In this document: positions 12,752 through 62,095 of the stretch, piece by piece | Layout: each line of letters opens with the position of its first letter | Numbering within the stretch: the stretch's first letter is position 1 | DNA from: Chloroflexota bacterium | GTDB taxonomy: Bacteria > Chloroflexota > Anaerolineae > UBA4142 > SHND01 | Length of the DNA stretch: 64,000 bases | Direction: 5' to 3' | Assembly: GCA_016209205.1 (NCBI GenBank) | Contig: JACQWQ010000071.1 | Location: forward strand, 1 to 64,000 | Position numbers and translations under genes: made by a program | Notes under the pieces: generated by a model | Database searches by the model: none | Seen by the model: the letters and a program-made list of their open reading frames with translations, nothing else | Told to the model about the DNA's origin: nothing

Positions 12752-12969
12752 ACGTTTCACGTTTCACGTTTCACGTTTCACGCTTCACGTTTCACGCTTC
12801 ACGCTTCACGTTTCACGTTTCACGCTTCACGTTTCACGTTTCACGTTTCACGTTTCACGTTTCACGTTTCACGCTTCACGTTTCACGCTTCACGTTTCAC
12901 GCTTCACGTTTCACGTTTCACGCTTCACGTTTCACGTTTCACGTTTCACGTTTCACGTTTCACGTTTCA
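12752..12969. repeat. Heptanucleotide tandem array (unit TTTCACG/CTTCACG; complement GTGAAAC/GTGAAGC), about 31 units
   Basis: Strict 7-bp period with T/C variants, directly readable. Confidence 0.97.
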
Positions 12970-41796: not shown

Positions 41797-42219
41797 GGTA
41801 ATGGGCGAAAAAAATTGTGCTCAACGGCGGACGTGAGTTTGCGTTCACGGTTTAGGGATGTCTGAAATCTCAGAGCGAACCCCGTCACAAGATGGGGCAT
41901 CCCATAGATGTGCCGTCAAGCACAATGAGAGGTGAGAGAATCGGTGCAGCCCTAACCGAAACGTCTTGTGCAACGGTCATCTGCCGATGGACCTGGCTTG
42001 CACTGACCGGATGGTGAACGGTAAAATGGGTGGAGCCCATGCCCCGCCTCGACCATTTTGCCGGTCACCCGGCTGCGCCGCTTGGAATTGTACGCAGGAC
42101 GCTCGCGTGCGGCAGCCCGCCCACAATCCGAAATGGCGCCACTTGCTCTCACTAACCAATCTAGAGATGCCAAGTCAAAATTTGGTTCATGTCGCGTGCA
42201 AAATTCATTGGAATACGGT

Positions 42220-42353
42220 ACTGGACTCTGGCGAATTTTGAAAACGGGCGAATTCTAGTTATTTCCGAAGGGTCGTATTAGAGCGTGAGAACAAGCGTTC
42301 GTCGGAAAATAACTATAGTTTCAGTAGTGGTTAGAAATTCGCCAGAGTCCAGT
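42220..42353. mobile_element. MITE-like element, 134 bp, 19-bp perfect TIRs, flanked by 5-bp direct repeat ACGGT
   Basis: ACTGGACTCTGGCGAATTT (42220-42238) / AAATTCGCCAGAGTCCAGT (42335-42353); ACGGT at 42215-42219 and 42354-42358; nested IR TAGTTATTTCCGA/TCGGAAAATAACTA. Confidence 0.75.
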
Positions 42354-42519
42354 ACGGTAGGTTGTCCCTCTGCGGAAATGACAGCTGACTCTATTCCTTA
42401 CAGCGCCGCCACGCTATACTTCAGAGTGGATTCCTCTTTGTCAAAAGGGTTCTTGACTGGGTAGGTAAGATTGTTAAAACAGCGAAATGACCCGCAGAGG
42501 AATCATCAGGAGGCATTGC

Positions 42520-43215
42520 ATGTCAACGCAAGGAACGATCCTCGTCATTGACGACGATAAAACATTACTACGATTGCTCCAGGAAGCACTCACCAAAGCG
42601 GGTTTTCAGGTTATTCTCGCATCCAATGGGATTGACGGCTTACAGGAAATGTATGCCCGCCAACCCGATTTGGTCTTGTTGGATGTGATGATGCCGCGAA
42701 TGGACGGTTGGGAAACCTTGACCCGTGTCCGTCAAATTTCACGTGTCCCCGTAATCATGCTCACCGCCAAAGACGCAGAGCAAGAAAAAGTGCGTGGCTT
42801 TAACCTGGGCGTGGATGATTACGTCACCAAACCGTTTAGTTTTGCAGAATTGATCGCGCGCGCCACTGCGGTCTTGCGCCGCTCGCGTACGACCGCACCG
42901 GTGACAAAAAACAAACGGTACAGCAGCGGCGATCTCGTCCTGGATGTAGATTCCCATCGCGTGACCAAAGCGGGGAAATTGGTCGAACTCACGCCCACCG
43001 AATTCCGCTTGCTCGAAACGCTGGCGGAACATGCCGGGCGCGTGTTGACGCACGAGCAGCTGCTTGAAAAAGTCTGGGGTTATGATGCCGGCGAGGACAC
43101 CGGGTATATCAAGCGGTACATCTGGTACTTGCGCCAAAAGTTAGAGGAAGACCCCACAAACCCGCAGCACATTCTCACCGAACGCGGCTTTGGCTATTCG
43201 TTCGCCGCAGATTGA
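42520..43215 (+). CDS. OmpR/PhoB-family response regulator
   Basis: ILVIDDDKTLLRLLQEAL...LVLLDVMMPRMDGWETL...winged helix LTPTEFRLLETLAEHAGRVLTHEQLLEKVWGYD. Confidence 0.94.
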   Translation: MSTQGTILVIDDDKTLLRLLQEALTKAGFQVILASNGIDGLQEMYARQPDLVLLDVMMPRMDGWETLTRVRQISRVPVIMLTAKDAEQEKVRGFNLGVDDYVTKPFSFAELIARATAVLRRSRTTAPVTKNKRYSSGDLVLDVDSHRVTKAGKLVELTPTEFRLLETLAEHAGRVLTHEQLLEKVWGYDAGEDTGYIKRYIWYLRQKLEEDPTNPQHILTERGFGYSFAAD

Positions 43216-43222
43216 CCCGCAG

Positions 43223-43257
43223 AAAAACTTGGCAATGCAAATTGCCAAGTTTTTTTC
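43223..43257 (+). terminator. Intrinsic terminator after response regulator
   Basis: AAAAACTTGGCAAT-gcaa-ATTGCCAAGTTTTTTTC. Confidence 0.85.
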
Positions 43258-43345
43258 TTACACCAAAGCAAAATGCAATCGTAACCGAATTATGACAACG
43301 CGGCGTGATAGTAAGGGTACACCATCAGCAGTTTTGGAGGAACGC

Positions 43346-43798
43346 ATGAACCCTCGACTCGTCCGTGACTGGATGACGCCGCATCCGATTACGATTGATT
43401 CCAAGACCGTCCTGCCCGACGCGCACCGCTTGATGCGGGACAGTCACATTCGGCGCTTGCCTGTCGTCGAACGCGGCAAACTTGTCGGCATCGTCACGCT
43501 GGGCGACATTCGCGAAGCGGAACCTTCGCAAGCCACGACCTTGAGCATTTATGAGTTGCATTATCTCCTCAGCAAACTCACCGTCGAACAAATCATGTCG
43601 CGCAATCCGATCACGATCGCGCCGGAGCAAACCGTGCGTGAAGCCGCGCGTTTGATGCTGGAACATAAAATCGGCGGACTCCCCGTCCTTGAGCCGCAAA
43701 CCGGCAAGTTGGTGGGCATCATCACTGAATCTGACATTTTCCGCATCTTTGCCCAAGAACCCGAAGTGGAACAAGAACCGATTACGGTTATGGCTTGA
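43346..43798 (+). CDS. Tandem CBS-domain protein
   Basis: VRDWMTPHPITIDSKTVLPDAHRLMRDSHIRRLPVVERGKLVGIVTLGDIR ... second CBS. Confidence 0.9.
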   Translation: MNPRLVRDWMTPHPITIDSKTVLPDAHRLMRDSHIRRLPVVERGKLVGIVTLGDIREAEPSQATTLSIYELHYLLSKLTVEQIMSRNPITIAPEQTVREAARLMLEHKIGGLPVLEPQTGKLVGIITESDIFRIFAQEPEVEQEPITVMA

Positions 43799-43915: not shown

Positions 43916-44305
43916 ATGAACAATCTATCTTTAACGCTCCTCATCGTCGGCGGGTTTTTCAACCTGGGCTTTGGTCTGTTTCACCTGACGTTCTGGCGAG
44001 TCTTTCGGTGGAAAGAAGAGTTGGCATCGCTCTCGTTTATCAATCGAGGAATTGTCCAAGTCCTCAACCTGTGCCTGACTTTTGTCTTTTTCGTTCTGGC
44101 GTACATCTCGTTCTTTCACGCTTCCGAGCTGCTGAGCACGAAATTGGGCGCGGCGTTGCTGACCGCCATCGCGCTGTTCTGGTTCCTGCGCGCGGTTGAG
44201 CAGGTAATCTTCTTTCGCCTGAGACGGCCCGTGTCGCTCATCCTAACCCTCGTGTTCTTGCTGGGCAGCGCGCTTTACCTCGCGCCGTTGATATTGGAGT
44301 TTTGA
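43916..44305 (+). CDS. Small hydrophobic membrane protein, 4 TM
   Basis: Four hydrophobic segments; stop overlaps next ORF start. Confidence 0.65.
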   Translation: MNNLSLTLLIVGGFFNLGFGLFHLTFWRVFRWKEELASLSFINRGIVQVLNLCLTFVFFVLAYISFFHASELLSTKLGAALLTAIALFWFLRAVEQVIFFRLRRPVSLILTLVFLLGSALYLAPLILEF

Positions 44306-44683
44306 GCTACAGGCCTGGTGTAAACAACTCCCTTATGCACGAGAACCAAGACGCCGTCTCCATTCCCGCGCTGGTCGAGAACTACGGGCGAATGGTTTCG
44401 TCGCTTTGCCGTCGCATGATAGACGACGAAGAAACTGCCCGAGACGCTGCACAGGAAGCTTGGCTAGAGATTATCAAGAGTCTGCCTTCCTTTCGGGGAG
44501 ACTCGAAGGTTTCGACCTGGATTTATGCCATCACCTGTCGCGTCGTGATGCACCGGGCGCAGGCAGAAAAAATATACTCGACCAGGTTTCTGAAAGGTTA
44601 CTTCCACGAAAAAGAAAGAGATTTGCCATCGTTCTCTCACGACTGGGAAAAGAAACTCTGGGTAAAGGAAATGTGCGACAAAT
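44302..44683 (+). pseudogene. Truncated RNA polymerase sigma-70 family (ECF) factor, region 2 only
   Basis: LVENYGRMVSSLCRRMIDDEETARDAAQEAWLEIIKSLPSFRGDSKVSTWIYAITCRVVMHRAQAEK; similarity ends near WVKEMCDK. Confidence 0.75.
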
Positions 44684-44689
44684 CGACTC

Positions 44690-44812
44690 CTATCACTCCG
44701 GTATCGTGCAGGGTCATCAAGAAAAAATTACTGATCCAGTCGGGCTGACCGGCGTGTGCGATGTATTTTTGCGCAAACACATTCGCGCCGTTGCCCAAAA
44801 GTGGGTTGTGCA
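44690..44812 (-). pseudogene. Internal fragment of an O-antigen ligase/polymerase-like protein
   Basis: MHNPLLGNGANVFAQKYIAHAGQPDWISNFFLMTLHDTGVIGVD. Confidence 0.5.
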
Positions 44813-45008
44813 TCCAACGCGGGTCAAGCAGAAAACGTTCAGTCGCCAGCGTAATAAAAATACCGAGGATGCGTGTGCCCGTGAGATTGACAACGAGCGC
44901 GCCAAACGGGAAGGATGCGCCGAGCCGCTGCGCGACCCAATCGCCCACCCCGTATCGCAAATTCGCACCCGCAATCGCGCCAATCGAAATCAATAAAAAG
45001 CGATCCAT
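44813..45008 (-). pseudogene. crcB: N-terminal fragment of FluC/CrcB fluoride channel
   Basis: MDRFLLISIGAIAGANLRYGVGDWVAQRLGASFPFGALVVNLTGTRILGIFITLATERFLLDPRW; rest of the channel missing. Confidence 0.75.
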
Positions 45009-45276
45009 TTGCTCCGAGCATACCCGAACGGGCGCGGTTTGAAAGTAAGCGGGATTACGGAAGGGGCAGGCAAGCGGTTATTGCCGGGCGAGCAGGTTTA
45101 TCACCAGCACCGCCGACCGCGAAAATTCGGTTGAGCCACAGCCCAAACCGTCGCACGGGTCATGGTTCGCGAAAACCGGCGCGGGAGCAAAGAGTGCAGG
45201 GGCTTCATGGTTCGGCTGCCAAGACGACCCCTGCCTTTCTTCCCTCGCGTATTGGGAGAGGTAAAAGCGGTGTAAG

Positions 45277-46536
45277 TTAGGTGAAAGGGGCGCGGTACAG
45301 CACTTCTCCCGCGTGTTCTACAACTAGAATTCCTTCTCCTTCCCGATTCTTCCACTCATCCACATTTATCGCGCGATAATCGGCGTACCCCAAATTGATT
45401 CGCCGACAACGCGCCTCGGGAATAGTCGTCGCGAGCGTAACCCGAATGCGCGGCGATTCGATGCCGCGCCCCGCGTCGTACTCGCCCGCGCCTTTGACAT
45501 GCGTGCTGTGCGCTTTGACGGCGCCGGGCACATCCCGAAATCTTTCGGCTTGTTTGACGAAATAATCGCGCACGTGATAGCCCACGCGGTCAATCAGCGC
45601 GCCGTGGGTGTATGAAACTTCGGAAATATGCGGCGCGTAGATAATGACTTGGCCGCCAGCGGCAATCGCGGGCTCGGTCTTGTACATCGCTTTCGCCGCC
45701 GTCCATAAATCGTCATACCGAGTTGAGGGCATCGAGAGCACACGGGTGAACAGACGCGGGACGCGGATGATGTTCAATTGTGCGGACAAATCGGCGGCGG
45801 CGGCGAACGCTTCGCGATAAGCGCCAATGAATATACCGCGCAATTCGCTGCCCTGCATGACGAGTGAAATGCAAACAATCGGGACGGGAACGAATTCTGC
45901 CGCCCGATGCACGACGCGGCGCACGAGCGTATCTTTCACGCCAATCGTTCGCATACTCGTCTGAAGCGCGCCGAGCCAATGCGTGGCGTTGATGATCTCT
46001 GCGCCGGCGACGCCGGGGATCAGGTATTTCGCGCCGCCGGAAAAGCCGGCCACTTCGTGGGGAAAGACGGGGCCGCACAGAATGAGTAATGCGTATTGCG
46101 CAATGAGTTTGTTGAGACGGACGGTCACAGGTTCATCGAGCATGCCGTCCGTTAGTTGGAGCAGCTCCTCGCGCGGGATCGTGCCAAAGGTTTCAAGCGC
46201 GTCGGGCAAATCCCAGCGATGATTCAAAATGGTAACGTTAGGGTATTTCGCTTGGCGCTCGTCGCGTGCGACGCCGACGAGTTTATCAATCGCGCGATCG
46301 TTCATTGGCGGATGCGTGCCCAGCGCGATCAGATAATCGAGCCGCGCGGCGCGGCGCCCAATCGTTTCGTACAGCACGCGAAACAGCATGGGAATCGGCG
46401 CGGTGCGTGTGCCATCGGGGATGATAACGAGGACGCGTTGGTTCGCGAGCGGCAAAGCATCAAATGCCCGCGCGACGAGCTGGAGAATTTCGTCCGAACT
46501 AGATGGAGGGGTAAGTGAATGGAGCAAAGCAAACAT
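45277..46536 (-). CDS. LarA-like (DUF2088) nickel-pincer lactate-racemase family protein
   Basis: RVLVIIPDGTRTAPIPMLFRVLYE...LIALGTHPPMNDRAIDKLVG...CGPVFPHEVAGFSGGAKYLIPGVAG. Confidence 0.88.
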   Translation of the reverse strand: MFALLHSLTPPSSSDEILQLVARAFDALPLANQRVLVIIPDGTRTAPIPMLFRVLYETIGRRAARLDYLIALGTHPPMNDRAIDKLVGVARDERQAKYPNVTILNHRWDLPDALETFGTIPREELLQLTDGMLDEPVTVRLNKLIAQYALLILCGPVFPHEVAGFSGGAKYLIPGVAGAEIINATHWLGALQTSMRTIGVKDTLVRRVVHRAAEFVPVPIVCISLVMQGSELRGIFIGAYREAFAAAADLSAQLNIIRVPRLFTRVLSMPSTRYDDLWTAAKAMYKTEPAIAAGGQVIIYAPHISEVSYTHGALIDRVGYHVRDYFVKQAERFRDVPGAVKAHSTHVKGAGEYDAGRGIESPRIRVTLATTIPEARCRRINLGYADYRAINVDEWKNREGEGILVVEHAGEVLYRAPFT

Positions 46537-46582
46537 CGTCGTGTTTCACAATCTATCCGCTTTTCGTCACAGCGTACTGGAT

Positions 46583-46618
46583 CGCATCCCTAATCCGCAA
46601 CCCGCAATCCGAAATCTT
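46583..46618. repeat. Heptamer array (GGATTGC-type) immediately after the SDR stop
   Basis: Minus strand: TAA AGATTTC GGATTGC GGGTTGC GGATTAG GGATGCG. Confidence 0.8.
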
Positions 46619-47439
46619 TACACGCCGCTGAACGCGCTAAATCCTCCATCAATGGGCACCACAACCCCTGTCACGAACTCGGATGCGGGTGAGAGCAACC
46701 ACAACACCGCGCCGCCGAGATCGCGCAGTTCGCCAAAACGCGCCATTGGCGTGTGCGCGAGAATCGCCTTGCCGCGCGGCGTCAGTTCGCCGCTCTTTTC
46801 ATCCATCAGCAAAAAGCGATTTTGCTCGGTGAGGAAAAAGCCGGGCGCGATGGCGTTGACGCGGATTTTGGGCGAGTACTCTTGCGCCATATGCACGGCG
46901 AGCCATTGGGTAAAATTGCTGACACTCGCTTTGGCGGCAGAGTATGCCGGAACGCGTGTGAGTGGACGGAACGCGTTCATAGACGAGATGTTCAAGATCA
47001 CGCCTTCGCCGCGCTCCGCCATTATTTTTCCAAACACCTGCGATGGCAGAATCGTACCGAGCAGATTCAAATCAAACACCGCGCGCAGGGCATCGGCAGG
47101 CAGGTCGAAAAAGGAGAGAGCCGGTCCCGTCGTTGCGCGTGGGTTGTTGCCGCCGGTCGCATTCACGAGGCCGTACACACCGGCATATCTGCTGAGGATT
47201 TCCTCCGCCGCGCGTTCCAGTGACCCTTTGTCCAGCACGTCCGCCTGTACGGCGATGACGTGTTCGTTCAGCAGATTCAATTCGCGCGCCTTGGCGGGGT
47301 TGCGCGCCAGGATGGCGCTGTTCGCGCCCACGGCCGAAAGCGCGCGCACGATCTCACGTCCCAGCACACCCGTGCCGCCGGTGACGACGATGGTCTTGCT
47401 CGTCAGGTCGAACTTGCCAGTGATTTCGTGGCTGCTCAT
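46618..47439 (-). CDS. SDR oxidoreductase, probable D-mannonate/fructuronate reductase type
   Basis: IVVTGGTGVLGREIVRALS, NATGGNNPRAT, YSAAKASVSNFTQWLAVHMA. Confidence 0.85.
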   Translation of the reverse strand: MSSHEITGKFDLTSKTIVVTGGTGVLGREIVRALSAVGANSAILARNPAKARELNLLNEHVIAVQADVLDKGSLERAAEEILSRYAGVYGLVNATGGNNPRATTGPALSFFDLPADALRAVFDLNLLGTILPSQVFGKIMAERGEGVILNISSMNAFRPLTRVPAYSAAKASVSNFTQWLAVHMAQEYSPKIRVNAIAPGFFLTEQNRFLLMDEKSGELTPRGKAILAHTPMARFGELRDLGGAVLWLLSPASEFVTGVVVPIDGGFSAFSGV

Positions 47440-48932
47440 AGTGGATTATTCGCTGCAAAGGGTTTCAGGTGTCTCACAAAATGCTTTTCCAGATTCGCGG
47501 CGTACGCGTCTTCATTCGCGCGCAGGAATGCCATCATCTCCTCTTTGAACCGCGCTTTTCCGGTCGCGTCTCGCGCGTTCAATACTGACCCGTACGTGAC
47601 GTGCAAAATCTGCCGCGCGTCGAACTGGTTCAAGAGCGCGGGGAGATCGGCGTCGCTCAGCGCGTCGCCAAGCGGCGCGCGTGCGAGTTGGGCGGAGACG
47701 TGGTACGTCGCGCGGTCGGCTGCATAGTGCTCGCGCGCAAACGCGTAAATCGCGCGCAAGAGTTCCGGCTCGATTTGTGCGACGGTCCGCAAGGCTTCGA
47801 GGTAACTCGTGCCTGCCGTCTTGAGATGCACCAGCCCGCGCGCCTGGCGCATCGCGATCTCATAGACGCTGAACTTGTCCGATCCCGAGTGGAGCGACAA
47901 CTTGTATGGGCCGAGACACCGCGCGATTTCCGCGTGAACGGCAAGATCGCGCTCGAACGCGTCCAGGTCCCCGATATAGTCAACGCCTTTCTCAAAACGT
48001 CCGCTATAGCGCGGCGCGAGCGAGATGAATGGCACGCCGAGCCGTTTGAGTTCGCTGGCGAAATAATAGTGCTCGACGTGCGTGGTCGGCGTTTCTGTCT
48101 CGTCCACCGAAACCTCTAACTCGAACTCGACACTCGTACTCGTCAGATGGCGGTACATTTTCGCGACGTGCGCGAGCGCGCGTCCGTATTTAGCGGCGGC
48201 GCGCAGCAGGTCGTCAGTTTCGGGTTTCAAGTTCCGAGTTTCCAGTCGCACCGTTTTGCCTGCGTAGCGCGTCGCCAGATCACGCGGCGTGCCTTCCAAT
48301 TCCTGCCACGGGAGCAGGTCCACGAAATGCCGGAGCTCGGTCGCACTCGCGCGGTCTGCCGCGCTGTTCACGTATTCGCCGGGATCAATCGTATAGAACG
48401 AATACTCTGCCGCGACACACGCGTCAAGGTCGTCCGTCGTTTTCAAATGGTCAGCATCCGCGCCCACCGCGCTTTTCCAACCGGCTTGAAACGCGCCCCA
48501 CGTTGCATCGTCCAGAACCCCTGGCGGGGTACGTCCCGTGCGCGCGTTTTCGCGAATGGATTGCTGCGCGAAAATTGGCGCGAGGTTTTCCGCGCGCGCC
48601 GCGCGCAGCGCGCGAATGTGACCGACGGTGGCGAGTCCGAGCCGATCCCCAAAGCCCGCCGACGTTTGCAAGCCGAGCCGCACGGGTTTGAGCCAAGGCA
48701 CTGCCGCGCGCAGTGCGCGCGCGTTGTGCGCCGTGAGGGGGCAGAGGGTGAGGACACGGTTGTCGTTCAGCGCGCGGGGTTCGCCATCGAAGGGGATGGG
48801 AAAATGGTGAGTAGTCGGAGCGCGGACGGCGAGCAACTTGCGATGGGCGTCTTGCGTCATCCAAAACGTCGCGTCGTTGTGCTGGACGTGCGAACTGTGC
48901 AGACCAGCGCCTCCCGACGGCAGCTCTATCAT
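47436..48932 (-). CDS. uxaE: Tagaturonate epimerase family (UxaE-like) protein
   Basis: LKPVRLGLQTSAGFGDRLGLATVGHIRALR...SLAPRYSGRFEKGVDYIGD...LSLHSGSDKFSVYEIAM; start MIELPSGG. Confidence 0.82.
   Translation of the reverse strand: MIELPSGGAGLHSSHVQHNDATFWMTQDAHRKLLAVRAPTTHHFPIPFDGEPRALNDNRVLTLCPLTAHNARALRAAVPWLKPVRLGLQTSAGFGDRLGLATVGHIRALRAARAENLAPIFAQQSIRENARTGRTPPGVLDDATWGAFQAGWKSAVGADADHLKTTDDLDACVAAEYSFYTIDPGEYVNSAADRASATELRHFVDLLPWQELEGTPRDLATRYAGKTVRLETRNLKPETDDLLRAAAKYGRALAHVAKMYRHLTSTSVEFELEVSVDETETPTTHVEHYYFASELKRLGVPFISLAPRYSGRFEKGVDYIGDLDAFERDLAVHAEIARCLGPYKLSLHSGSDKFSVYEIAMRQARGLVHLKTAGTSYLEALRTVAQIEPELLRAIYAFAREHYAADRATYHVSAQLARAPLGDALSDADLPALLNQFDARQILHVTYGSVLNARDATGKARFKEEMMAFLRANEDAYAANLEKHFVRHLKPFAANNPL
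48210..48253. repeat. Heptamer run within uxaE (TGGAAAC TCGGAAC TTGAAAC CCGAAAC), encodes RLETRNLKPETDD
   Basis: Plus strand GTTTCGG GTTTCAA GTTCCGA GTTTCCA. Confidence 0.8.
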
Positions 48933-48939
48933 TTGTTCC

Positions 48940-50349
48940 TCACGCGTTGTCCAATTTGTATGCGCTCTTTGCCAGTCCGTACGCCATCGCGTACATCGTC
49001 TCGACGGCGTCATCCAGGTCTATGATTTCGCGCGTGACCAAGCCCGCCAGCCAATTCGCGCTGGCGCGCCGCCATAGGTCATGCCGCGCGGGAATGGAGC
49101 AAAAGGCGCGGGTGTCGTCGTTAAAGCCCACCGTGTTGTACAACCCCGCGGTTTCGATCACCTGATCCAGGTAGCGTGCCATGCCGTTCAAACTGTCAAA
49201 GAACCACCACGGCGGACCGAGCTTGAGCGCGGGATAGTGACCTGCCAGTGGCGCGAGTTCGCGCCCGTGCGTCGTCTCGTCGAGCGTAAAGAGAATCAGC
49301 GTCAGCCGCGTATCGTTGCCGTACTTGGTGAGGAGTGGACGCAGGTTGCGCGTAAATTCGCCCTGCAGCGGAATGTCCGCGCCTTTGTCCGCCCCGAAAT
49401 GTTGAAAGAGGGTGTCATTGTGGTTGCGAAAAGAGCCGGGATGCAGTTGCATCACCAAACCGTCTTCTATGCTCATCCGCGCCATTTCCATTAACAGATG
49501 TCCTGTAAAGCGCGCGGCTTCATCCGGCGTGATTTCGCCGCGGAACGCGCGCTGGAAAATCGGTTCTGCCTCTGGCTCGGATAGTTCGCTTGTGTAGGCC
49601 GTGACCGCCGCGTGGTCGGTCGCCATCGCGCCCAGCTGCTTGAAAAACGCGCGGCGATTCTCTAGCGCGCGAATGAACGAGCGATAATCGTGCACCTCGA
49701 TGCCGCTCACTTGACTCAGCGCGTCAATGTGCTCGCGCCAGTTCGGCGTGTCCAGATTCACGACCGCATCGGGGCGGAAGGTGGGGCGGATTTTGCCATG
49801 CCATCCCGAGGCGCGGATATTGATGTGGTGCGTCAGCGGATCCGTCGCCGCGTCGGTCGTGCAGAGTGTTTCGATGCGAAAGCGGTCGTAGAACGCGCGC
49901 GGGCGAAATGCCGGCGTGCCCAAGCGTTCGACGATTTGATCGTAAATGCGCTGAGCCGAAGCCCAAGTCAGTTTTTCGGTGATGCCAAAGATGTCGCGCA
50001 GTTCATCGCCAATCCAGATGCCGGTGGGCGTGCCGCGAAAGAGGTGAAAGTGATCCGCGAACGTTTGCCAGATTTTGCGATGGTCGCTCTCGACCGGTTC
50101 GCCGTCACGGCGGGGGATTCCCAGCCGTTCGAGCGGAATGCCTTGCGAATAGAGCATTCGGAAAACATAGTGGTCGGGAATGATGAACAGATCAACCGGT
50201 GTGCCGAACGTATAGTCCGGATCGGCAAACGCACGCGGGTCCACGTGACCGTGCGGACAGAGGAGCGGCAAGGTCGCCGCCTGCGCGTACAGGCGCGCGG
50301 CAAGCTCGCGCTGGTGCGGATCGGATGAGAAATAACGGTTAGCCGTCAT
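48940..50349 (-). CDS. uxaC: Glucuronate isomerase
   Basis: PLLCPHGHVDPRAFADPDYTFGTPVDLFIIPDHYVFRMLYSQGIPLERLG; VGFNDDTRAFCSIPARHD. Confidence 0.95.
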   Translation of the reverse strand: MTANRYFSSDPHQRELAARLYAQAATLPLLCPHGHVDPRAFADPDYTFGTPVDLFIIPDHYVFRMLYSQGIPLERLGIPRRDGEPVESDHRKIWQTFADHFHLFRGTPTGIWIGDELRDIFGITEKLTWASAQRIYDQIVERLGTPAFRPRAFYDRFRIETLCTTDAATDPLTHHINIRASGWHGKIRPTFRPDAVVNLDTPNWREHIDALSQVSGIEVHDYRSFIRALENRRAFFKQLGAMATDHAAVTAYTSELSEPEAEPIFQRAFRGEITPDEAARFTGHLLMEMARMSIEDGLVMQLHPGSFRNHNDTLFQHFGADKGADIPLQGEFTRNLRPLLTKYGNDTRLTLILFTLDETTHGRELAPLAGHYPALKLGPPWWFFDSLNGMARYLDQVIETAGLYNTVGFNDDTRAFCSIPARHDLWRRASANWLAGLVTREIIDLDDAVETMYAMAYGLAKSAYKLDNA

Positions 50350-51122
50350 AGGATTTTCGCAGCGGACTCCTGGTCTAGAAATAGATGGGCGTGCGGGGCG
50401 CGGCGCAGAATTGAACCCGGACAATCCTCGCTAATCGGCATTCTCAGGGCGCGATAAACCGCGCCCGCTTTGCGCGCTTCGGGCACCATCGCGAGGACCC
50501 GTTTCGCCGCGCGGAGGGCGGGAATCGTTAGGGTGATCGCGTGCGTGGGCACATCGTCAATGGAAGCGAAATGCCCCTCGCCGACTTGTTGACGGCGCGA
50601 CGCTTCCGCCAGTTTAATCGCTTTGACCCAGACCGGATCATCGAAATCGGCGAACGGTGGGTCATTGAACGCCAGATGCCCGTTCTCGCCGTAACCGAGC
50701 GCGCACAAATCGGCAGGATGCGCGCGCAACAGCCCCGCATACTCCGCGCAGGTGGTCTCTATATTCTCCGCGCGGCTCGGGATCGGATAGAACGCTTTTG
50801 GCTTGACGTAGGCGAGCAGGCGTCGGCGCAGGAAATTCGGGAAACTGGCAGGATGATTCGGATCAATGCCGATGTACTCGTCCATATGAAAGAGATTCAA
50901 CGCTGCCCAATCAATATCCGGCATCTGCCGCAACGCGGCAAGAAACGTCAACTGTGAATTGCCGGTGGCAAGAATGATGTTCGCTTGGCCTTTTTCGCGA
51001 ACCGCGTGGTGGATGATGCGCGAGGCTTCTTCTGCCGCTGCCGCGCCGAGTGCCTGGTTGGTCTGATAAACCGTGATGGGTAGTTGGTCAACTGTTGTTT
51101 CGTGAACCGGTATGATCGTCAT
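50346..51122 (-). CDS. nagB: Glucosamine-6-phosphate deaminase / 6-phosphogluconolactonase family
   Basis: ILATGNSQLTFLAALRQ, FHMDEYIGIDPNHPASF, LGYGENGHLAFNDPP. Confidence 0.92.
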   Translation of the reverse strand: MTIIPVHETTVDQLPITVYQTNQALGAAAAEEASRIIHHAVREKGQANIILATGNSQLTFLAALRQMPDIDWAALNLFHMDEYIGIDPNHPASFPNFLRRRLLAYVKPKAFYPIPSRAENIETTCAEYAGLLRAHPADLCALGYGENGHLAFNDPPFADFDDPVWVKAIKLAEASRRQQVGEGHFASIDDVPTHAITLTIPALRAAKRVLAMVPEARKAGAVYRALRMPISEDCPGSILRRAPHAHLFLDQESAAKIL

Positions 51123-52339
51123 TGCAAAATCCGCCTGTTATTTGTCATTGGGATCATTGGCTTTCCCTCTCGATGAATCCAGCGCCCCTCGCACGAAACG
51201 CCCCACGCGCTCCAATCAGGATTGAAAATCGAAATGTCCGCATCTTTGCCTATTTCAAGACTGCCCTTGCGATCCTGGAGACCGAGCACCCGCGCCGGCG
51301 TCAGCGTCAACATTCGGATCGCCGCGACGAGCGGAATGCCGACAAGGTTTGTCAGAATTGGGATCATCTGGTTCAAAAGCGTCGCGCTGCCCGCGAAAGA
51401 ACTGCCATCCAACATCATTCCGACCCCATCGCGCACCTCGTACTCCATCCCGCCCATTTTGAAACGCGCGCTTTCGGGCAAGCCCGCGCCGCTCGTCGCG
51501 TCGGAAATCACGCACAGCCGATCCGGGCCAATGCATTTGTACGCGAGCTGCATCAACGTCGGCGGCAGATGCTTGCTGTCTGCAATCATTTCGACGGTGA
51601 GACCATCAAAGACGAGCGCGGCTTCGAGCAAACCGGGCTTGCGCCATGGACCTTCGCGCACGACCGACGACATCGCGCTCCAAATGTGCGTGATGTGTCG
51701 CAAGCCGACGCGCATCGCCGCGCGCACATCTTGGTCTTTTGCGGAACTGTGTCCCGCCGCCGGCACAATGCCCAGCCGCGTCAGTTTTTCGACCAGCGGC
51801 AGCGCGCCCGCTAATTCCGGCGCAAGGACGAAAATCCGGATGATGTCGTGATATTGTAGCAGAGCGTCTGATGTACCATCATTTGGAACGCGAAGGCTCG
51901 ACAGATCCAGCGCGCCTTTTTGCGCGGGATTGATGTACGGCCCTTCCAGATGGGCCCCGAGCACGCGCGCGCCCGCGGGCGCCGCGCGTATCCACGCGCG
52001 GCAGAACTCCAGAGACGCGACCAAATCCACAATCGGTGCGGCGGCAATCGTGGCGAGGAGCGCGGTCACGCCCCGCCGCGCGTTCTCGCGCGTGATCGCG
52101 CCAAACGCTTCAGCTGTCGGTTCGTTGAAGGTGTGTCCCAGCGCGCCGTGCGTGTGAATGTCAATCAGACCTGGCGTGACGAGCCGCCCGCCAACATCCA
52201 TTGTTTCGATGTCCGCGCTCAGCGCGCCTGCGCTCGCAAGCCCCGCGATTTTGCCATTTTCAACAATGAGGGCTTTGTCTGGCGTCACCATAGTTGGCAA
52301 GACGAGGCGGGCATTCGTTAAGGCGAAGCGAGAAACCAT
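51119..52339 (-). CDS. nagA: N-acetylglucosamine-6-phosphate deacetylase
   Basis: VTPGLIDIHTHGALGHTFNE, GAHLEGPYINPAQKGA, GHSSA. Confidence 0.93.
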   Translation of the reverse strand: MVSRFALTNARLVLPTMVTPDKALIVENGKIAGLASAGALSADIETMDVGGRLVTPGLIDIHTHGALGHTFNEPTAEAFGAITRENARRGVTALLATIAAAPIVDLVASLEFCRAWIRAAPAGARVLGAHLEGPYINPAQKGALDLSSLRVPNDGTSDALLQYHDIIRIFVLAPELAGALPLVEKLTRLGIVPAAGHSSAKDQDVRAAMRVGLRHITHIWSAMSSVVREGPWRKPGLLEAALVFDGLTVEMIADSKHLPPTLMQLAYKCIGPDRLCVISDATSGAGLPESARFKMGGMEYEVRDGVGMMLDGSSFAGSATLLNQMIPILTNLVGIPLVAAIRMLTLTPARVLGLQDRKGSLEIGKDADISIFNPDWSAWGVSCEGRWIHREGKPMIPMTNNRRILQ

Positions 52340-52352
52340 AGTATGAGCGAAT

Positions 52353-53465
52353 TTAATTCCGCGAGCCAAACCATCGGCGCGCGGTCTCCACGGCTTCCGA
52401 CCAACTCTTGGCAACATGACGATGAATGATGCCGGTGTGAATATGTTGGGCCTCAGGGAGAATGTCCCCATCCCACATCAAGCAGATTTTTTTCGGGGCC
52501 GCGAGAGCATAACGTTTGAGGAGACTCTGCATTTCCGGATTTCCAAAGTTGATGCTCGTGATGCCGGGTGCGTCAATCATTTCTTCGTAAAACTGCGTCC
52601 CTTTGCCGCAGAAATGTCCGAGCGCGCCATTGAGCGCGGTGGCGACGCGCGCGTTGTACGGCTTGCAAAACTCGCGATACATCTTGTGCGAGAGCATCAC
52701 GCCCGAATCGTCGGGGATGCAGCCGCCGCCGCGATGGCGACAGCCAAACTTGTAGCCCTCGTCCGATTTTTCGCCGGTGATCGCGCGGTGTTTTTGAATG
52801 ACCGCAATGCAAAGCGGCACGTAAAAATCGAGCAGGTCGTGGACCAGTTGGGGATCTTCAATCGTCGCCTCGAAGATGGCAGTGCCCCCCAGGTTCACCG
52901 CGAAATTGAACGGCCCTTGTGGGTCGGGATGTCCAATGCGAACGGTCTGCGCGAGTTTCGGATACTGCGCGAGCGTGTCGCGAAAATATGCTTCGGTCTC
53001 CCACACCTGCTTCCCGATGCCGTTGTTCAGATCGGGCATTCCGCGCGCGAGGACCTCCCGCACGGCGTCGAGACTCTCGACCGGCATCGGCCACGGCAGA
53101 TTGTCTTCGTCTTGCCAGTACCCTGCGCCCAAAATTGAAGTCGTCAGGATCAAGCCATAGTTCGCGCGAATTGTGAACACGCGGTCGTCTTGCAACCGCG
53201 CGCCCTCGTACACTTGCATCAATTCGCTCACGAGCATCTTGGCGGGGTCGCGGAAGACTTCGCGGTAGGGAATGCGGAGCCACTCGGGCGGATAATCATA
53301 CTGCAAATGACTCCACGCCGCGCGGCACGTGACCAGCGTTGGACGAAAATCGAGTGGCTCAAAGTTGAGCGCAGCCCATTGACGCGCGTGGGCGCGTTTC
53401 TGGTGCTCGACGTCCACGAGCGCCTCTAGTTGGTCGAGGTAAGGGCGCGGATCAAAATCGCTCAT
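52353..53465 (-). CDS. Uroporphyrinogen-decarboxylase-family (URO-D-like) protein, non-heme context
   Basis: TNNGIGKQVWETEAYF..GTAIFEATIEDPQLVHDLLDFYVPLCIAVIQ; ...HFCGKGTQFYEEMIDAPGITSINFGNPE. Confidence 0.75.
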   Translation of the reverse strand: MSDFDPRPYLDQLEALVDVEHQKRAHARQWAALNFEPLDFRPTLVTCRAAWSHLQYDYPPEWLRIPYREVFRDPAKMLVSELMQVYEGARLQDDRVFTIRANYGLILTTSILGAGYWQDEDNLPWPMPVESLDAVREVLARGMPDLNNGIGKQVWETEAYFRDTLAQYPKLAQTVRIGHPDPQGPFNFAVNLGGTAIFEATIEDPQLVHDLLDFYVPLCIAVIQKHRAITGEKSDEGYKFGCRHRGGGCIPDDSGVMLSHKMYREFCKPYNARVATALNGALGHFCGKGTQFYEEMIDAPGITSINFGNPEMQSLLKRYALAAPKKICLMWDGDILPEAQHIHTGIIHRHVAKSWSEAVETARRWFGSRN

Positions 53466-53492
53466 CGAATCTCCCTCCGGGAGTGTTTGAAA

Positions 53493-53663
53493 GTCATTGC
53501 GCGGCGTGTATTTTGCGCCGAAGCAATCTCCGCCGTAGGGGATTGCTTCGCACAAAACGCTGCACAGGACTTGGCATATCGAGCGGAGCGAGATATCTCA
53601 CTCCGTTCGATATGACAGTCCTGAGCCCATACAGCCCCTGCGGGCTGACCATCTCGCAATGAC
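53493..53663. repeat. REP/palindromic intergenic element (GTCATTGCG...GAAGCAATCTCC...GGGATTGCTTCG...CGCAATGAC)
   Basis: Outer arms GTCATTGCG/CGCAATGAC, inner GAAGCAATC/GATTGCTTC. Confidence 0.75.
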
Positions 53664-53664
53664 A

Positions 53665-54717
53665 TTATGCGATGCCCGGCAACTTGAGCTCATCGGCGCG
53701 ATGGCACGCGACGAAATGACCGGGCGAGCGCTCGCGATACGCGGGCGCCTCTCGGCGGCACACGTCCACCGCGAATTCGCAGCGCGGATGAAAGTAACAG
53801 CCTGACGGCGGATTCGCCGGACTGGGCACTTCGCCTTTCAACTCGACGCTGCCCGTTTTGACGCGCGGGTCGGGAACCGGCACCGCCGCCAGCAGCGCCG
53901 CCGTGTACGGGTGTTTGGGCAGCGCGAACAACTCGGTCGTCTCGGCGGTCTCGACGATCTTGCCGACGTACATGACTGCCACACGGGCGCTGATGTGCTT
54001 GACCACGCTCAAGTTGTGGGCGACAAAAAGATACGTCAGGTTCATCCGCTTTTGCAGGTCGAGCATCAAATTCAGAATTTGCGCCTGCACCGAAACATCG
54101 AGCGCGGAGATCGGCTCATCGGCGACGACGAGCCGCGGGTGCAGCGCGAGCGCGCGCGCAATCCCGATGCGCTGCCGCTGCCCCCCACTGAACGCGTGCG
54201 GATAGCGCTGCATGAACTCGGGGCGCAGCCCCACCAGCCGCAGTAACTCCGCCACGCGCTCGACGCGTTCTCGGCGGTTGGTCATGCCGTTGACCAGCAG
54301 CGGCTCACCGACAATGTCGAACAAGGTCATGCGCGGGTTAAGCGAGCTGTACGGGTCCTGGAAGATCAGCTGCATTTGCGGACGCAAGGGGCGCAATTCC
54401 TGACGCGTCAGTTTTGCCAGATCAACCCTTGTCGCGTCGGGCGTCCCAAAGAGCATTTGTCCACTGGTCGGCGTGAGTGCGCGCAAGATGCAGCGGGACG
54501 TCGTCGTCTTACCGCAGCCGCTCTCGCCGACCAAAGCGAGCGTTTCGCCCTCGTGGATAAAGAAACTGACGTCGTCCACCGCGCGCACATTGCCGAGGAC
54601 ATGACGAAAGAACCCTTTTTGAATCGGAAAATATTTTTTGAGATTTTTCACCTGGAGCAAGGGCTGGGCGGACGGGTGGGTGGATGCCTGGCTCGGTAGA
54701 TGGTTCGTGCCTGTCAT
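53665..54717 (-). CDS. Oligopeptide/oligosaccharide ABC transporter ATP-binding protein (OppF-like)
   Basis: [35 protein letters not shown]-terminal HPRCEFA motif. Confidence 0.95.
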
Positions 54718-55730
54718 CGCGGTACCTCAACGTCGTGGTAGAGAACACATGCCGCCGCTTGCACCCCACCAACTGACCGCAAGGGCGGAATATGCTTATC
54801 ACATTTGCCGGCGATGAACTGCGGACAGCGCGGGTGAAAGGGGCAACCGCTGGGGCGATTGAAGGGATGCGGAATCGATCCGCTGATCGTCGGCAGATTC
54901 ACGCGCGGCGTCGAGTGGACGCTCGGAATCGAACGGAGTAAGGCTTGGGTGTACGGATGTTTGGGCGCGTGAAAAATCGCGTCCACCGGCCCCTCCTCCA
55001 TCACGAGACCGAGATACATTACCTGGACATAATCCGCCATCTGGGCGATGACGCCGAGGTCGTGCGTGATAAAGATGATCGCGGTATGGTGTTCCTCTTG
55101 CAGCTTGCGTAGCAGACGCAGAATCTGCGCTTGCGTCGTCACGTCAATCGCGGTGGTCGGCTCATCGGCAATCAAGAGCCGTGGATGACACGAGAGCGCC
55201 ATCGCGATCATCGCGCGTTGGCGCAAGCCGCCGCTTAATTGCCACGCATATTCGTCGAGGCGCTGTTCCGGCATCGGGATACCGACATCGCGAAACATTT
55301 CTAGCGCGATCTGGCGCGCCGCGCGGGCGTGGACGGGCTGGTGCAAGCGAATCGCTTCAATGATTTGGTCGCCGACGGTATGCACCGGGCTGAACGACGA
55401 CATTGGCTCTTGCGGGATCAGCGCGATCTGCGCGCCGCGAATGTCGCGCATCTCTTTGCCGTTCGGATTCAATTTGGCGAGATCAATCGTACTGCCGTTT
55501 CGATTCAACAAAATCTCACCCTTGACGATGCGCCCTGGCGGCTCGAGGATTTGCAGGATCGCCTTCATCGTTACGCTTTTGCCGCAGCCGCTTTCGCCCA
55601 CAATGCCAAAGACTTGACGTGGGAACACGTCGAAACTCACGCCGTCCACGGCTTGTACAATGCCCTCGTCCATGAAAAATTGGACTTGCAGGTTGTGGAC
55701 GGAGAGCAGCGGCGTTGCGTGATTCATCAC
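54714..55730 (-). CDS. ABC transporter ATP-binding protein (OppD-like)
   Basis: [43 protein letters not shown]. Confidence 0.95.
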
Positions 55731-55739
55731 AGATAGCCT

Positions 55740-56897
55740 CTAATGCCCATACGGGTCCGCTGCATCGCGCAAGCCGTCGCCGACGATATTAAACGCCAGC
55801 ACCGCCAGAATCACGAACAAACCGGGGATCAAGAGCCACGGCGCGAGCGCAATCGTCTGAAGATTTTGCGCTTCCTGCAACAACACGCCCCAACTGATCG
55901 CAGGGGGACGAATGCCCAAGCCCAAGAAACTCAACGACGTTTCATTGATAATCATCACCGGGATCGCGAGCGTGCTCGTGGCGATGATGTGACTCATGAA
56001 CGCGGGCACCATATGGCGCGTGATGATGCGCCAGCGGCTGCAACCGGCGAGTTCAGCCGCGAGAACGAAATCCTCTTCCCGCAGCGACAAAAATCGCCCG
56101 CGCACTTCGCGCCCCAGCGTCGTCCAGCCGACCAACGCGAGAATGATGGTAATTGCCAAAAAGACCTGGTCGGGACGCCAGTCCTGCGGCAGCGCGGCGG
56201 TCATCGCGAGCCAGATCGGAATCGTCGGCAGCGATTGCAATAGTTCGATCAGGCGTTGAATGATCAGATCGAGCCAGCCCCCAAAATAACCAGAGACGCC
56301 GCCCAGAACGACGCCGAGCACCACGCTGAGTGCGACCGCGACCAAACCGACCGTCATCGAGGTGCGCGTGCCGTACATCAGCCGCGACCATTGATCGCGC
56401 CCCAGGCGATCGGTGCCGAGCAAGAAAACCTTGGCGTCGGCGTCTTGACTTCCAGAGCCAAAGAGGTGAATGTCCGTCTCGAAAATTCCGAGAACCTTGT
56501 ACGGATAGCCTCTTACGAACAAGTGGAGGGGCACTTGTTTCGTCGCGTCCACTTGCCATTCCATTTTCAAGGTGACTGCATTGCGCTTACCGACAATCGC
56601 GGGAGCCCACGGACTGATCCGCGCGCCGTCGAGGAGATGGATGCCTTGAATGGGGATGAACGAGAGTTTTGCGTCGGTCGCTTCGGGATCGTACGTCGCA
56701 AAGAAATCAGGAACCAGCACGACGAGGTAAAACAGTATCAACACGCCTGCGCTGAACAACGCGAGGTGATGTTTGCGAAAGCGCCACCAAACCAGTTTCC
56801 AGTTCGACGCCACCGAGACGCGCTCTTCGGCGACGGATTTCACGACCTGGTCCAGGGGTAGAACGACGGGATTGGCGTTTGCCATGGGTTCACGCAT
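55740..56897 (-). CDS. ABC transporter permease (OppC-like)
   Basis: GTDRLGRDQWSRLMYGTRTSMTVGLVAV, EAA-like loop AAELAGCSRWRIITRHMVPAF. Confidence 0.93.
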   Translation of the reverse strand: MREPMANANPVVLPLDQVVKSVAEERVSVASNWKLVWWRFRKHHLALFSAGVLILFYLVVLVPDFFATYDPEATDAKLSFIPIQGIHLLDGARISPWAPAIVGKRNAVTLKMEWQVDATKQVPLHLFVRGYPYKVLGIFETDIHLFGSGSQDADAKVFLLGTDRLGRDQWSRLMYGTRTSMTVGLVAVALSVVLGVVLGGVSGYFGGWLDLIIQRLIELLQSLPTIPIWLAMTAALPQDWRPDQVFLAITIILALVGWTTLGREVRGRFLSLREEDFVLAAELAGCSRWRIITRHMVPAFMSHIIATSTLAIPVMIINETSLSFLGLGIRPPAISWGVLLQEAQNLQTIALAPWLLIPGLFVILAVLAFNIVGDGLRDAADPYGH

Positions 56898-57903
56898 TTT
56901 CCATGCGGATTCGGGGATCGAGCCAGGCGAGCAGGATGTCCGAGATGAGCGTGCCGATGATCGTGAGAAAACAATAGATCAGCAGGATGCTGCCGGCGAG
57001 ATACATATCTTGCTGAACCAGCGCGCGCAGCAGCATGGGACCGATGTTGGGCAGATTCATCACCGTGGCGACGATGAGACTGCCCGAGAATAATTGCGGC
57101 AGGTACCACCCAATCGTGCTGACCAGCGGATTGATCGCGAGGCGCACCGGGTATTTTAGCACCAACCGCCACTCGGACAAGCCCCGAGCGCGTGCGGCGA
57201 CCACGTAGGGCTTGTTCAGTTCGTCGAGCAAATTCGCGCGCATGACCCGCATCAAGCGCGCGGTCCCCGCGATGCCGAGAATAATCATCGGCAGCCAGAT
57301 GTGCTGAAGCAAATCAATGAACCGCGCCAGGCTCCACGGGGCTTGCTCGTATTCGCGCGAGAACAGCCCGGTCACACTGACGCCGAAACTGGAAAACGCC
57401 ACCCACATCAAAATCAGCGCGAGCATAAAGTTGGGCGTCGCCACGCCGATATAGTTGAGCAAAGTAAAGACGTAATCGAGAATCGAGTTCTGATGCGTCG
57501 CGGAATAAATCCCCGCCGGAATCGCGATCACCCACGTAAACACAAACGCGAACAGCGCGAGCAAAACGGTCAGCAGCAACCGTTCGCCGATCAACTCCAT
57601 GTTCGGACGCTGGTATTCGAGCGACAAGCCGAGATCGCCTCTGCCTAGACCCTCCATCCAACGGATGTACTGAACGTGGAACGGTTGATCAAGCCCGAAC
57701 TGCTTGGTCAACGCGTCCACTTGCGCCTGATCCACCGATGAGCCGGAGGAAGCGAGCGTCGCGAGATAACTCGTGAGAAAATCGCCGGGCGGCGCTTGCA
57801 CGAGCAAAAAGACGACGACGGAAAAGACAAAGAGCAAAAGCGGCAAGAGAAGCAGACGTTGCAAGATGAAGCGAAGCACGTACTGGACTCCCCAGGGAAA
57901 CAC
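56890..57903 (-). CDS. ABC transporter permease (OppB-like)
   Basis: FGLDQPFHVQYIRWMEGLGRGDLGLSL; RARGLSEWRLVLKYPVRLAINPLV. Confidence 0.93.
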   Translation of the reverse strand: MFPWGVQYVLRFILQRLLLLPLLLFVFSVVVFLLVQAPPGDFLTSYLATLASSGSSVDQAQVDALTKQFGLDQPFHVQYIRWMEGLGRGDLGLSLEYQRPNMELIGERLLLTVLLALFAFVFTWVIAIPAGIYSATHQNSILDYVFTLLNYIGVATPNFMLALILMWVAFSSFGVSVTGLFSREYEQAPWSLARFIDLLQHIWLPMIILGIAGTARLMRVMRANLLDELNKPYVVAARARGLSEWRLVLKYPVRLAINPLVSTIGWYLPQLFSGSLIVATVMNLPNIGPMLLRALVQQDMYLAGSILLIYCFLTIIGTLISDILLAWLDPRIRMENA

Positions 57904-57999
57904 ATAGACACATAGACAGGTAAACAGGTAGGCAAGCGCTTGTCTACTTGTTTCCGCCCGAACACCGTTCGGGAGTCTACCTGTCTACGTGTTGTGAAC

Positions 58000-60027
58000 T
58001 TACTTTTTGTAGAACCACTGCTCCGGGCGCGAGTTGCCGGGCGTGCGCAGCGGCCAGTCCTTGCCCAACTTGGTTGGGATGTTGCGCATGTTCGCGTTCA
58101 CCACGCACACACCCTGATCCAGCGGGGTCAAACCGATGGTGCCGATCTCGAACATATTGTCCACCCAGATCTTGAAGATCTCCTGGGCGATCTTGGCTTG
58201 TTCGTCGGGCCCGACCGTTTTGCCCTTGTCAATCAACTCGACAATCTTTTTGATTTCGGGCAAGGGTTCCATTCCTTCTTTTCCACCGGTGTCGTACCAC
58301 TGCTTGTTGAGCGGACCCAAGGTGATGTTGCCCGCGAGAATCGTGCGAACATCATACTTGGGATTGCCGGTAAAGGGAAAGCCGGCGGTGTCCTGATTCC
58401 AGATTTCCGCTTGCAGGTCGTTGGACGCGCGCAATTGGAAGTGGAGCGAGCGTTCGCGCACCTGGACGTTCGTCTTGATGCCGACCTTCTCCCAATCCTT
58501 CGCGATCAACTGCGCGACGTCGGGCCAAGGTCCGAACACGGGGACAACGGACAGTTCAACCACGATGCGCTTGGTGGCGCCGGGATAGAGCCGGAATCCT
58601 TCCGCGTCTTTCTTGTCCAAGCCGAGTTTATCCAGCATGGCGTTGGCTTCGTCGGGCTTGTACTCGGTATACTTTTTGGCGTACTCATCGCCGGGATAAT
58701 ACGGGTGCCCCGGCGCGGCAACACCTTGCCGCGGCTCACCGAGTCCCAGGAACGCCGATTCCTGAATCTCCTGGCGGTTGATCGCGTACGATAGCGCGAT
58801 GCGGAAATCCTTTTCGCGCAGCAACTTGCCCAGGTCCTCGTCTTTGGCGTACGTCAGGTTGAAAAAGACTTCCGCGTCGCCGCCCCCGAAAGCGGGCCAC
58901 GTGATGACGCGAATTTTGCCGGTCTTGAGTTCGTTTTCCTTGAACAGCGGGTAACTCAACAAGTTGATATGCCGTTCTTGTTGGTCGAGCTCACCCGCGA
59001 GCGCGGCGGCGGTCAACGCCTGCGCGTCGGCAAAGAACTTGAACTGCACTTCGTCAATGTACGGCAGTTGATTGCCTTCCTGGTCCACACCCACAAAGTA
59101 CGGATTGCGGCGCAAGGTGAACACTTCTTCGCTGATGCGATTGACCGGCATCCACGCCGCCATCACCGGGCGTTCGGGATTTTCCGGCGGGCTTTGCTTG
59201 TTGGCAAAGAGTTCCGTCCACGTCTTGAATTTCGCTTCGGTCGCCATCTTGGCGAGGTCTTCTTGCTTGGCGTAGGCGGCGTGGAACTGTTTCAAGTACT
59301 TGGACGGCAAGAATACCGCATACTGGCGGTCGCCATTGTCCTTGTTCGCGAGCTCCAGCGGGAAGGTCGTGTTCGCGTTGTTGTACGTCCACGTCACGGT
59401 GTAATCGTCAACCTTCTGGACCTGGACCGTCGAGCCATCCTTGTTCTTCATCCACGTCGGGATGGACGGCGTAATGTCCTTGTTCAGGAGCACATCGTTG
59501 TACCAGAACAAGATGTCGTCCGCCGTGAACGGGTCGCCGTTCGACCATTTCGCGCCCTTGCGTAGTTTGACCGTCCACGTCTTGAAATCGGACGAGGGCG
59601 TCAAGCTCTCGGCGTAGTGGGGCACCACTTTGCTTCCATCGGGCGAAAAGCGGACGAGCGCATCATACACCACGCGCACATAGTTGTTGAAATCGGATGG
59701 ACCGAGAAAGCCGCGCCGCCACACCCCGCCATAAGTACCGATGCTCTCGACCGTTTCGATGACGAGGGGATTTTCGGGCAAGCGCTGATCGACCGGCGGC
59801 AACGTGCCGGCTTTGACCTGTTCCGCCAACTGCGGCGCTTCTTTGTACTTGGATGCGGGCGCGGCGGTTGGCGCGGGGGGCTGCGTTGGCGCGGGGGGCT
59901 GCGTTGCGGCGGGCGCCGTCGGCGGCACGGGCTGGCTCGGCGCCGGCGTGGGCGCGGCGCACGCGGTCGCAATTATTGCCAGGAGCGCAACGCCCGCGCA
60001 TAATCGAAAGAACCACTTGGCATTCAT
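58000..60027 (-). CDS. Extracellular solute-binding protein family 5 (lipoprotein)
   Basis: LLAIIATACAAPTPAPSQP lipobox; FKTWTVKLRKGAKWSNGDPFTADDILFWYNDVL. Confidence 0.94.
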   Translation of the reverse strand: MNAKWFFRLCAGVALLAIIATACAAPTPAPSQPVPPTAPAATQPPAPTQPPAPTAAPASKYKEAPQLAEQVKAGTLPPVDQRLPENPLVIETVESIGTYGGVWRRGFLGPSDFNNYVRVVYDALVRFSPDGSKVVPHYAESLTPSSDFKTWTVKLRKGAKWSNGDPFTADDILFWYNDVLLNKDITPSIPTWMKNKDGSTVQVQKVDDYTVTWTYNNANTTFPLELANKDNGDRQYAVFLPSKYLKQFHAAYAKQEDLAKMATEAKFKTWTELFANKQSPPENPERPVMAAWMPVNRISEEVFTLRRNPYFVGVDQEGNQLPYIDEVQFKFFADAQALTAAALAGELDQQERHINLLSYPLFKENELKTGKIRVITWPAFGGGDAEVFFNLTYAKDEDLGKLLREKDFRIALSYAINRQEIQESAFLGLGEPRQGVAAPGHPYYPGDEYAKKYTEYKPDEANAMLDKLGLDKKDAEGFRLYPGATKRIVVELSVVPVFGPWPDVAQLIAKDWEKVGIKTNVQVRERSLHFQLRASNDLQAEIWNQDTAGFPFTGNPKYDVRTILAGNITLGPLNKQWYDTGGKEGMEPLPEIKKIVELIDKGKTVGPDEQAKIAQEIFKIWVDNMFEIGTIGLTPLDQGVCVVNANMRNIPTKLGKDWPLRTPGNSRPEQWFYKK

Positions 60028-60063
60028 GGATTCTCCTCCTTGTCTTGAAGACGAATTGATCTG

Positions 60064-60411
60064 TTAGGGGTTGTCGTGCTGCTCAATCGAACTGGGGCGA
60101 CTCACCTCCTTTCCTTCCGTCGCGACACGAAACGTGACTGTCCCGCCGTCGGTATAACGCTGTGGATCGAGACACTGCACGTATGCCGCGCCATCTTGTC
60201 CAGCGATGCCCAACTCGCGCGGCGCGAGGCCGCGACTGAGCGGGACATAGTACGGATTGAGCGATTGCAGCGCATGCATGCACACCGCGCATTCGCTCAC
60301 GAGTTTGTAGCCGTCGGCGATGGTGAAGGTATCACCCACGCGATAGACCGGGCAGTGACCTTGAATCTCGACGACCCGAACCGTCAGTTTTCTATGCGAC
60401 GGGTTACTCAT
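60064..60411 (-). CDS. TIGR04076 family protein
   Basis: LTVRVVEIQGHCPVYRVGDTFTIADGYKLVSE...CMHALQSLNPYYVPLSRG. Confidence 0.75.
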   Translation of the reverse strand: MSNPSHRKLTVRVVEIQGHCPVYRVGDTFTIADGYKLVSECAVCMHALQSLNPYYVPLSRGLAPRELGIAGQDGAAYVQCLDPQRYTDGGTVTFRVATEGKEVSRPSSIEQHDNP

Positions 60412-61583: not shown

Positions 61584-62062
61584 TCCCCCAAACGCACCTT
61601 GTCAAACTCCCACCCTTGCGCCGCGCACACCGCGCGTACGTGCGCGTCCCAGGTCGGCTCATCTTTCGGTCTGCCCTCGACGAAGCAATCAACGCTCAAG
61701 TAACGCAGTGCCTGCTCCCCTTCGCACTGAATTCGATGGAGCGTGTGGGGCGGGATTCGCACGACATCGCCGGGCGTGACCCGGAACGATTGATGATTCT
61801 CTCCGATGTAAAGTGTGCCCGCACCTTCCAGCACATAGAAAATCTGCTCGGTGTCGTGATGCGCGTGCAAGGGGGGCGATTCGCCCGGCTCGAGTACGAC
61901 GATGAACACCTCGGACGCTTCGGCGTCCGCGCGATCTATCACGAGGTCGTTGACGTGCGTGGGAAATCGGTAACGGATGGCATCCTGAGTACTGAAAACG
62001 TACTGAGTCAAGAGCAACTCCAAATCCAAGGCAGAAGGATGAAGAGAGATCACGGTTTTCAT
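61580..62062 (-). CDS. Cupin-domain protein
   Basis: LEPGESPPLHAHHDTEQIFYVLEGAGTLYIGE; alternative start at 62083 lies in repeat. Confidence 0.85.
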   Translation of the reverse strand: MKTVISLHPSALDLELLLTQYVFSTQDAIRYRFPTHVNDLVIDRADAEASEVFIVVLEPGESPPLHAHHDTEQIFYVLEGAGTLYIGENHQSFRVTPGDVVRIPPHTLHRIQCEGEQALRYLSVDCFVEGRPKDEPTWDAHVRAVCAAQGWEFDKVRLGD

Positions 62063-62095
62063 CCTTCTGCCTTCATCCTTCATCCTTTGCTTGTT
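62040..62095. repeat. Heptamer array (TTCATCC; minus GGATGAA) overlapping the cupin gene 5' end
   Basis: TTCATCC TTCTGCC TTCATCC TTCATCC TTTGC. Confidence 0.85.

Follow-up and report, generated by a model that had tools for sequence, protein, structure and literature searches.

Are three unrelated gene pieces lying end to end within 0.7 kb a new gene, an assembly mistake, or the remains of a rearrangement? This question is raised by positions 44335-45008 of the window, the 64,000-nucleotide stretch analyzed here (positions 1 to 64,000 of a Chloroflexota contig), in which parts of a sigma-70 factor, a Wzy_C (O-antigen-ligase-like) protein, and a FluC/CrcB fluoride channel follow one another. 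The preliminary description regarded them as three truncated genes joined together, and comparisons with intact homologues agreed with this, showing truncation at defined bases. Intact homologues of sigma, wzy, and FluC are known elsewhere, each holding a single piece at most; a full-length homologue with all three segments was looked for, and none with more than one piece was found. It is highly probable that the locus is a genuine chromosomal scar without function, produced by the insertion of ~23 kb between the genes for a CBS-domain protein and a NifU-like protein.

Identity and limits of the three gene pieces

The sigma-70 piece (44335-44682, plus strand) consisted of the 5' part of the gene (116 codons, region 2), and was classified as a pseudogene fragment. 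A significant match to Sigma70_r2 (PF04542) was detected by Pfam (9e-13), with region 4 being absent from the piece and present in the intact homologues (L109 and L108). All 116 residues were aligned with the intact sigma of G203, another genome of the same class (69% identity by tblastn and 71% by HMMER), and with that of a Spirochaetes MAG (61%). Both intact proteins ran on past the same '...MCDK' into region 4, and the homology broke off at K116 (44682), exactly where the gene stops. The halt after MCDK on the plus strand, as originally described, was retained; the homologous start was the ATG at 44335, not 44302. A search of 19 further genomes of the order did not detect this sigma, and only two other genomes among 400 of the phylum, plus the one Spirochaetes MAG, contained it at E<=1e-12; searches of plasmids gave distant matches only (all <60% identity). 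This rarity in the order and phylum, together with the presence in a Spirochaetes MAG, suggested horizontal transfer, and the sigma gene was probably acquired in this manner.

The second piece (44683-44813, minus strand) was an internal segment of a Wzy_C gene of ~125-131 bp, in accordance with the originally proposed minus-strand peptide of ~120 bp. The match spanned 44697-44800 by DNA and about 44685-44807 by protein. Intact wzyA genes of relatives were 75-77% identical to the piece over 96-111 bp (blastn), and the identity of intact wzy at the protein level was 60-69% over ~40 residues (tblastn). When the open reading frame that includes this piece (see below) was used as the query, each of the five genus relatives yielded a match to its intact Wzy_C gene (E 1.6e-15 to 3.1e-14). 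The wzy piece also matched a paralogue in its own genome (1.5e-11). Matches in all five relatives and in the paralogue indicate that the resemblance is not due to chance. The intact gene of the relatives belongs to Wzy_C (PF04932, 8.5e-13), while the piece alone gave no Wzy_C match in Pfam, ~40 residues being left of a full polytopic membrane protein.

The third piece (44814-45008, minus strand) corresponded to codons 1-65 (TM1-TM2) of FluC/CrcB, a pseudogene fragment with an N-terminal CRCB match (1.1e-8, Pfam). Its homology to the intact FluC genes of three genus relatives (76-81% at the nucleotide level and 80-85% at the protein level) ended at the identical base, 44814, supporting the earlier proposal that the ligase-like piece replaces the FluC C-terminus. 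The pore part containing F82/F85/S83/E88/Y104 (TM3 Phe/Ser and TM4 Tyr) was missing, since the piece ended before the TM3 motif (TTFSSY in the relatives). Among the pore residues of TM2, GALVVN was found in place of GTL(I/V)(V/I)N: Asn43 was kept, and the position corresponding to Thr39, matched by spacing to the conserved Asn43 and not by structure, was Ala. The T39A substitution abolishes fluoride permeation in Fluc-Bpe (PMC8315801). Radical changes (W20G, T37A, and L46R) affected positions that do not vary among the three genus relatives; in TM2, an arginine stood where these relatives carry leucine. Three genus relatives have a close FluC, and in each of them a fluoride riboswitch was detected upstream of it (L021, L022, and L023); a search of 44980-45400 gave nothing up to E 10. 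In the relatives, the gene after FluC is a DUF190-CBS gene. With TM3-TM4 missing, no riboswitch, and T39A, the FluC piece cannot work as a channel. A second fluoride riboswitch was noted at a distance of ~10-12 kb from that of FluC in G005 (L021:18834-18897) and G004 (L022:547-616).

Intact versions of the three genes were sought elsewhere in this assembly, as the preliminary description had envisaged; there were none for FluC or this sigma, and for wzy only a paralogue (on contig C34). More specifically, the C-terminal half of FluC (query: intact FluC of G005) and the rest of the wzy orthologue (query: intact protein of G005) were not found in the assembly, and the only other sigma factors there were distant (at most ~35-43% identity). 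With an assembly completeness of ~94%, it is likely, not certain, that the genome lacks these halves.

Joints and the shared open frame

At the sigma/wzy joint, sigma ended at 44682 and the wzy protein match extended to ~44685, leaving at most ~3 unassigned bases; at the wzy/FluC joint, FluC ended at 44814 and wzy started at ~44807-44804, leaving at most ~9. The joints shared almost no sequence, too little to confuse an assembler, and no inverted repeats flanked them. The side-by-side arrangement of the halves, as in some invertible loci, may bring to mind a phase-variable or programmed locus that rebuilds them; however, this reading has a practically negligible probability, because no inverted repeat was present at the joints, no recombinase was identified among the nearby genes examined, and reassembly was largely refuted by the failure to find the missing halves in the assembly.

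The FluC and wzy pieces shared one open frame (44637-45008, 123 amino acids), and a functional new fusion gene, encoding a small membrane protein, for example, was considered. Although the frame is open across the FluC/wzy joint, each part is read in its own frame, and the overall dN/dS of the pieces was low (0.08-0.24 for all pieces), several observations make this proposal very improbable. Among 20 genomes of the order, no homologue spanned both parts: with the fused query, FluC matches ended at 65-69 and wzy matches began at 57-65. The substitutions in FluC at genus-invariant positions and the lack of a riboswitch also stood against it. The low dN/dS values suggested instead that the breakage was recent relative to the divergence of these species, and recent breakage accounts for them. 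The FluC and wzy pieces happen to fall in one frame. It is extremely unlikely that the truncated sigma, reduced to region 2, serves as a dominant regulator or that the 123-amino acid FluC-Wzy product is expressed as a small membrane protein.

The interval between the CBS-domain and NifU-like genes

The left flank of the locus was conserved: the response regulator and CBS-domain genes (42487-43798, plus strand) were collinear with G002:C111:4246-5546 and G003:C15:45650-44397. In G002:C111, the order response regulator - CBS - NifU-like - p67384 was uninterrupted and represents the uninserted arrangement; CBS directly beside NifU was seen in this genome only, the order in G003 being response regulator - CBS - p67384. 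In the present genome, CBS ended at 43798 and the NifU-like gene started at contig position 66956 (NifU/p67384, 66956-67722), with ~23 kb between them. The adjacency in G002 and the order of genes in the inserted island (described below) place the three fragments near the left edge of the insert.

Within the insert, the scar was preceded by an open reading frame for a hypothetical membrane protein of 129 amino acids (43916-44305, plus strand), which gave no Pfam match above the cut-off and no match in the loci fetched from relatives. It was followed by an apparent uronate/amino-sugar catabolic island (45277-64000, minus strand, continuing to contig position 64133), recognized from its open reading frames and Pfam matches: UxaE (7.5e-150), UxaC (3e-79), Lar_N (2.6e-20), and SBP_bac_5 (1e-58). 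Genes for SDR (Pfam) and cupin proteins also belonged to it, and NagB-like, NagA-like, peptide-type ABC transporter, AGE-like, and LacI-like genes were named from their translations. The first genes of this cluster (45.5-50.3 kb) were collinear with G004:C148, where FluC was not located alongside. Near the right end of the insert, a DUF6399 protein and a neighboring open reading frame (L028:324-1966, contig positions 64324-65966) were probably a broken putative transposase. No tRNA was present in the window or L028, and tRNA-borne integration was accordingly rejected; the longest match between the insert edges in a search for a target-site duplication or flanking direct repeat was 11 bp, which was at chance level.

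The preliminary description left two readings of the locus, a rearrangement hotspot or a chimera; the former was retained and the latter appeared unlikely. Misjoining at 44682/44813 of pieces from other genomes or other places, by assembly or binning, might be suspected from the fragmentation of the assembly into 279 contigs (completeness 93.9%, contamination 2.5%), the artificial appearance of three unrelated truncated genes within 700 bp, and the nearest relatives of sigma, which fall outside the order. Nevertheless, this explanation is improbable. The flanks at 43.76 kb and 67.13 kb neighbor each other in G002, so that a chimera would need several errors returning to one locus. Genome-wide repeats found on both sides of the scar (42218-42356 and 53548-53666) indicated that both sides belong to this genome, and tetranucleotide profiles to the left and right were correlated at 0.92-0.96. 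In addition, the joints offered no shared sequence for misassembly, and the missing halves were located on no other contig.

These repeats were of two kinds. The element at 42218-42356 was a 139-bp MITE-like hairpin (hairpin z-score -8.6) with ~22-bp terminal inverted repeats (GTACTGGACTCTGGCGAATTTT), and copies with 99-100% identity were present on C258 and C84 of this assembly. The element at 53548-53666, flanked by a UroD-like gene on one side and an ABC transporter gene on the other, was a palindromic repeat of ~115 bp with dozens of copies across the assembly (most with 90-99% identity) and related copies (80-87%) in G002. Elsewhere in the window, an array of short tandem TTTCACG/CTTCACG-type units was observed (12760-12990), with ~40-bp matches on many other contigs.

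A local origin of the wzy stub is plausible because, in both G001 and G005, the wzy cluster (wzyA) is found close to the block of chromosome that makes up the left portion of the present contig. In G005, wzyA is located beyond SpoIIE, on the side where the present genome keeps MFS. The possibility that the wzy piece simply occupies its ancestral place (the G005 order) was weakened by G001-G004, in which SpoIIE and MFS are adjacent as here, and by the wzyA of G001, which lies at the opposite side of the block. For the glycosyltransferase/sugar-transferase genes upstream of wzy in the relatives, no orthologue was found here, only short DNA patches of 66-84%, while the UroD-like gene beyond the relatives' wzy had a 68% match on C23 of this assembly, which may be a paralogue. 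As a separate observation, two polysaccharide-gene open reading frames of G001 (C44; L085:13702-16190) had N-terminal tandem repeats read as 'DANREIGGPR', corresponding to short DNA repeats.

Origin of the scar and comparison with known systems

The three pieces are most likely pseudogene debris left at an insertion hotspot by insertions and deletions that followed one another; the scar is probably neither a sequencing mistake nor a new gene. In the simplest account, the CBS-NifU interval would be this hotspot, into which the catabolic cluster and a probably foreign sigma gene would have come. Deletions joined with little or no homology would then have left the ~130-bp wzy stub between the halved sigma and the halved FluC, possibly by illegitimate end joining or transposase activity. 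We infer the number, order, and mechanism of these events, as well as the loss of function in the pieces.

For annotation, none of the fragments should be entered as a sigma factor, ligase, or fluoride channel, and there is no need to discard the contig as chimeric. The scar looks like a record of the recent loss of FluC alongside the gain of a sugar-acid utilization island; the wzy gene, probably with its exopolysaccharide cluster, was apparently also lost recently next to this gain.

Compared with a small sigma-70 factor (region 2 plus region 4), the first piece is alike in its 116 N-terminal residues including region 2 (69-71% to G203), whereas it has lost region 4 together with the C-terminal part. 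The second shares with the Wzy_C/O-antigen ligase family (PF04932) 40 residues with 60-69% identity to the intact gene of each genus relative, but under 10% of the gene is kept. The third shares its 65 N-terminal residues with intact FluC/CrcB members of the genus, and differs in having T39A and in lacking TM3-TM4 and the riboswitch. As for pseudogene debris at island boundaries, the present locus is distinguished by three pieces within 0.7 kb, one of ~130 bp, without a tRNA site or direct repeats; on the other hand, it has in common with such debris sharp-jointed truncated genes at the edge of a catabolic insert and a decayed putative transposase near the far end, and the scar is of an ordinary kind, namely, rearrangement debris.
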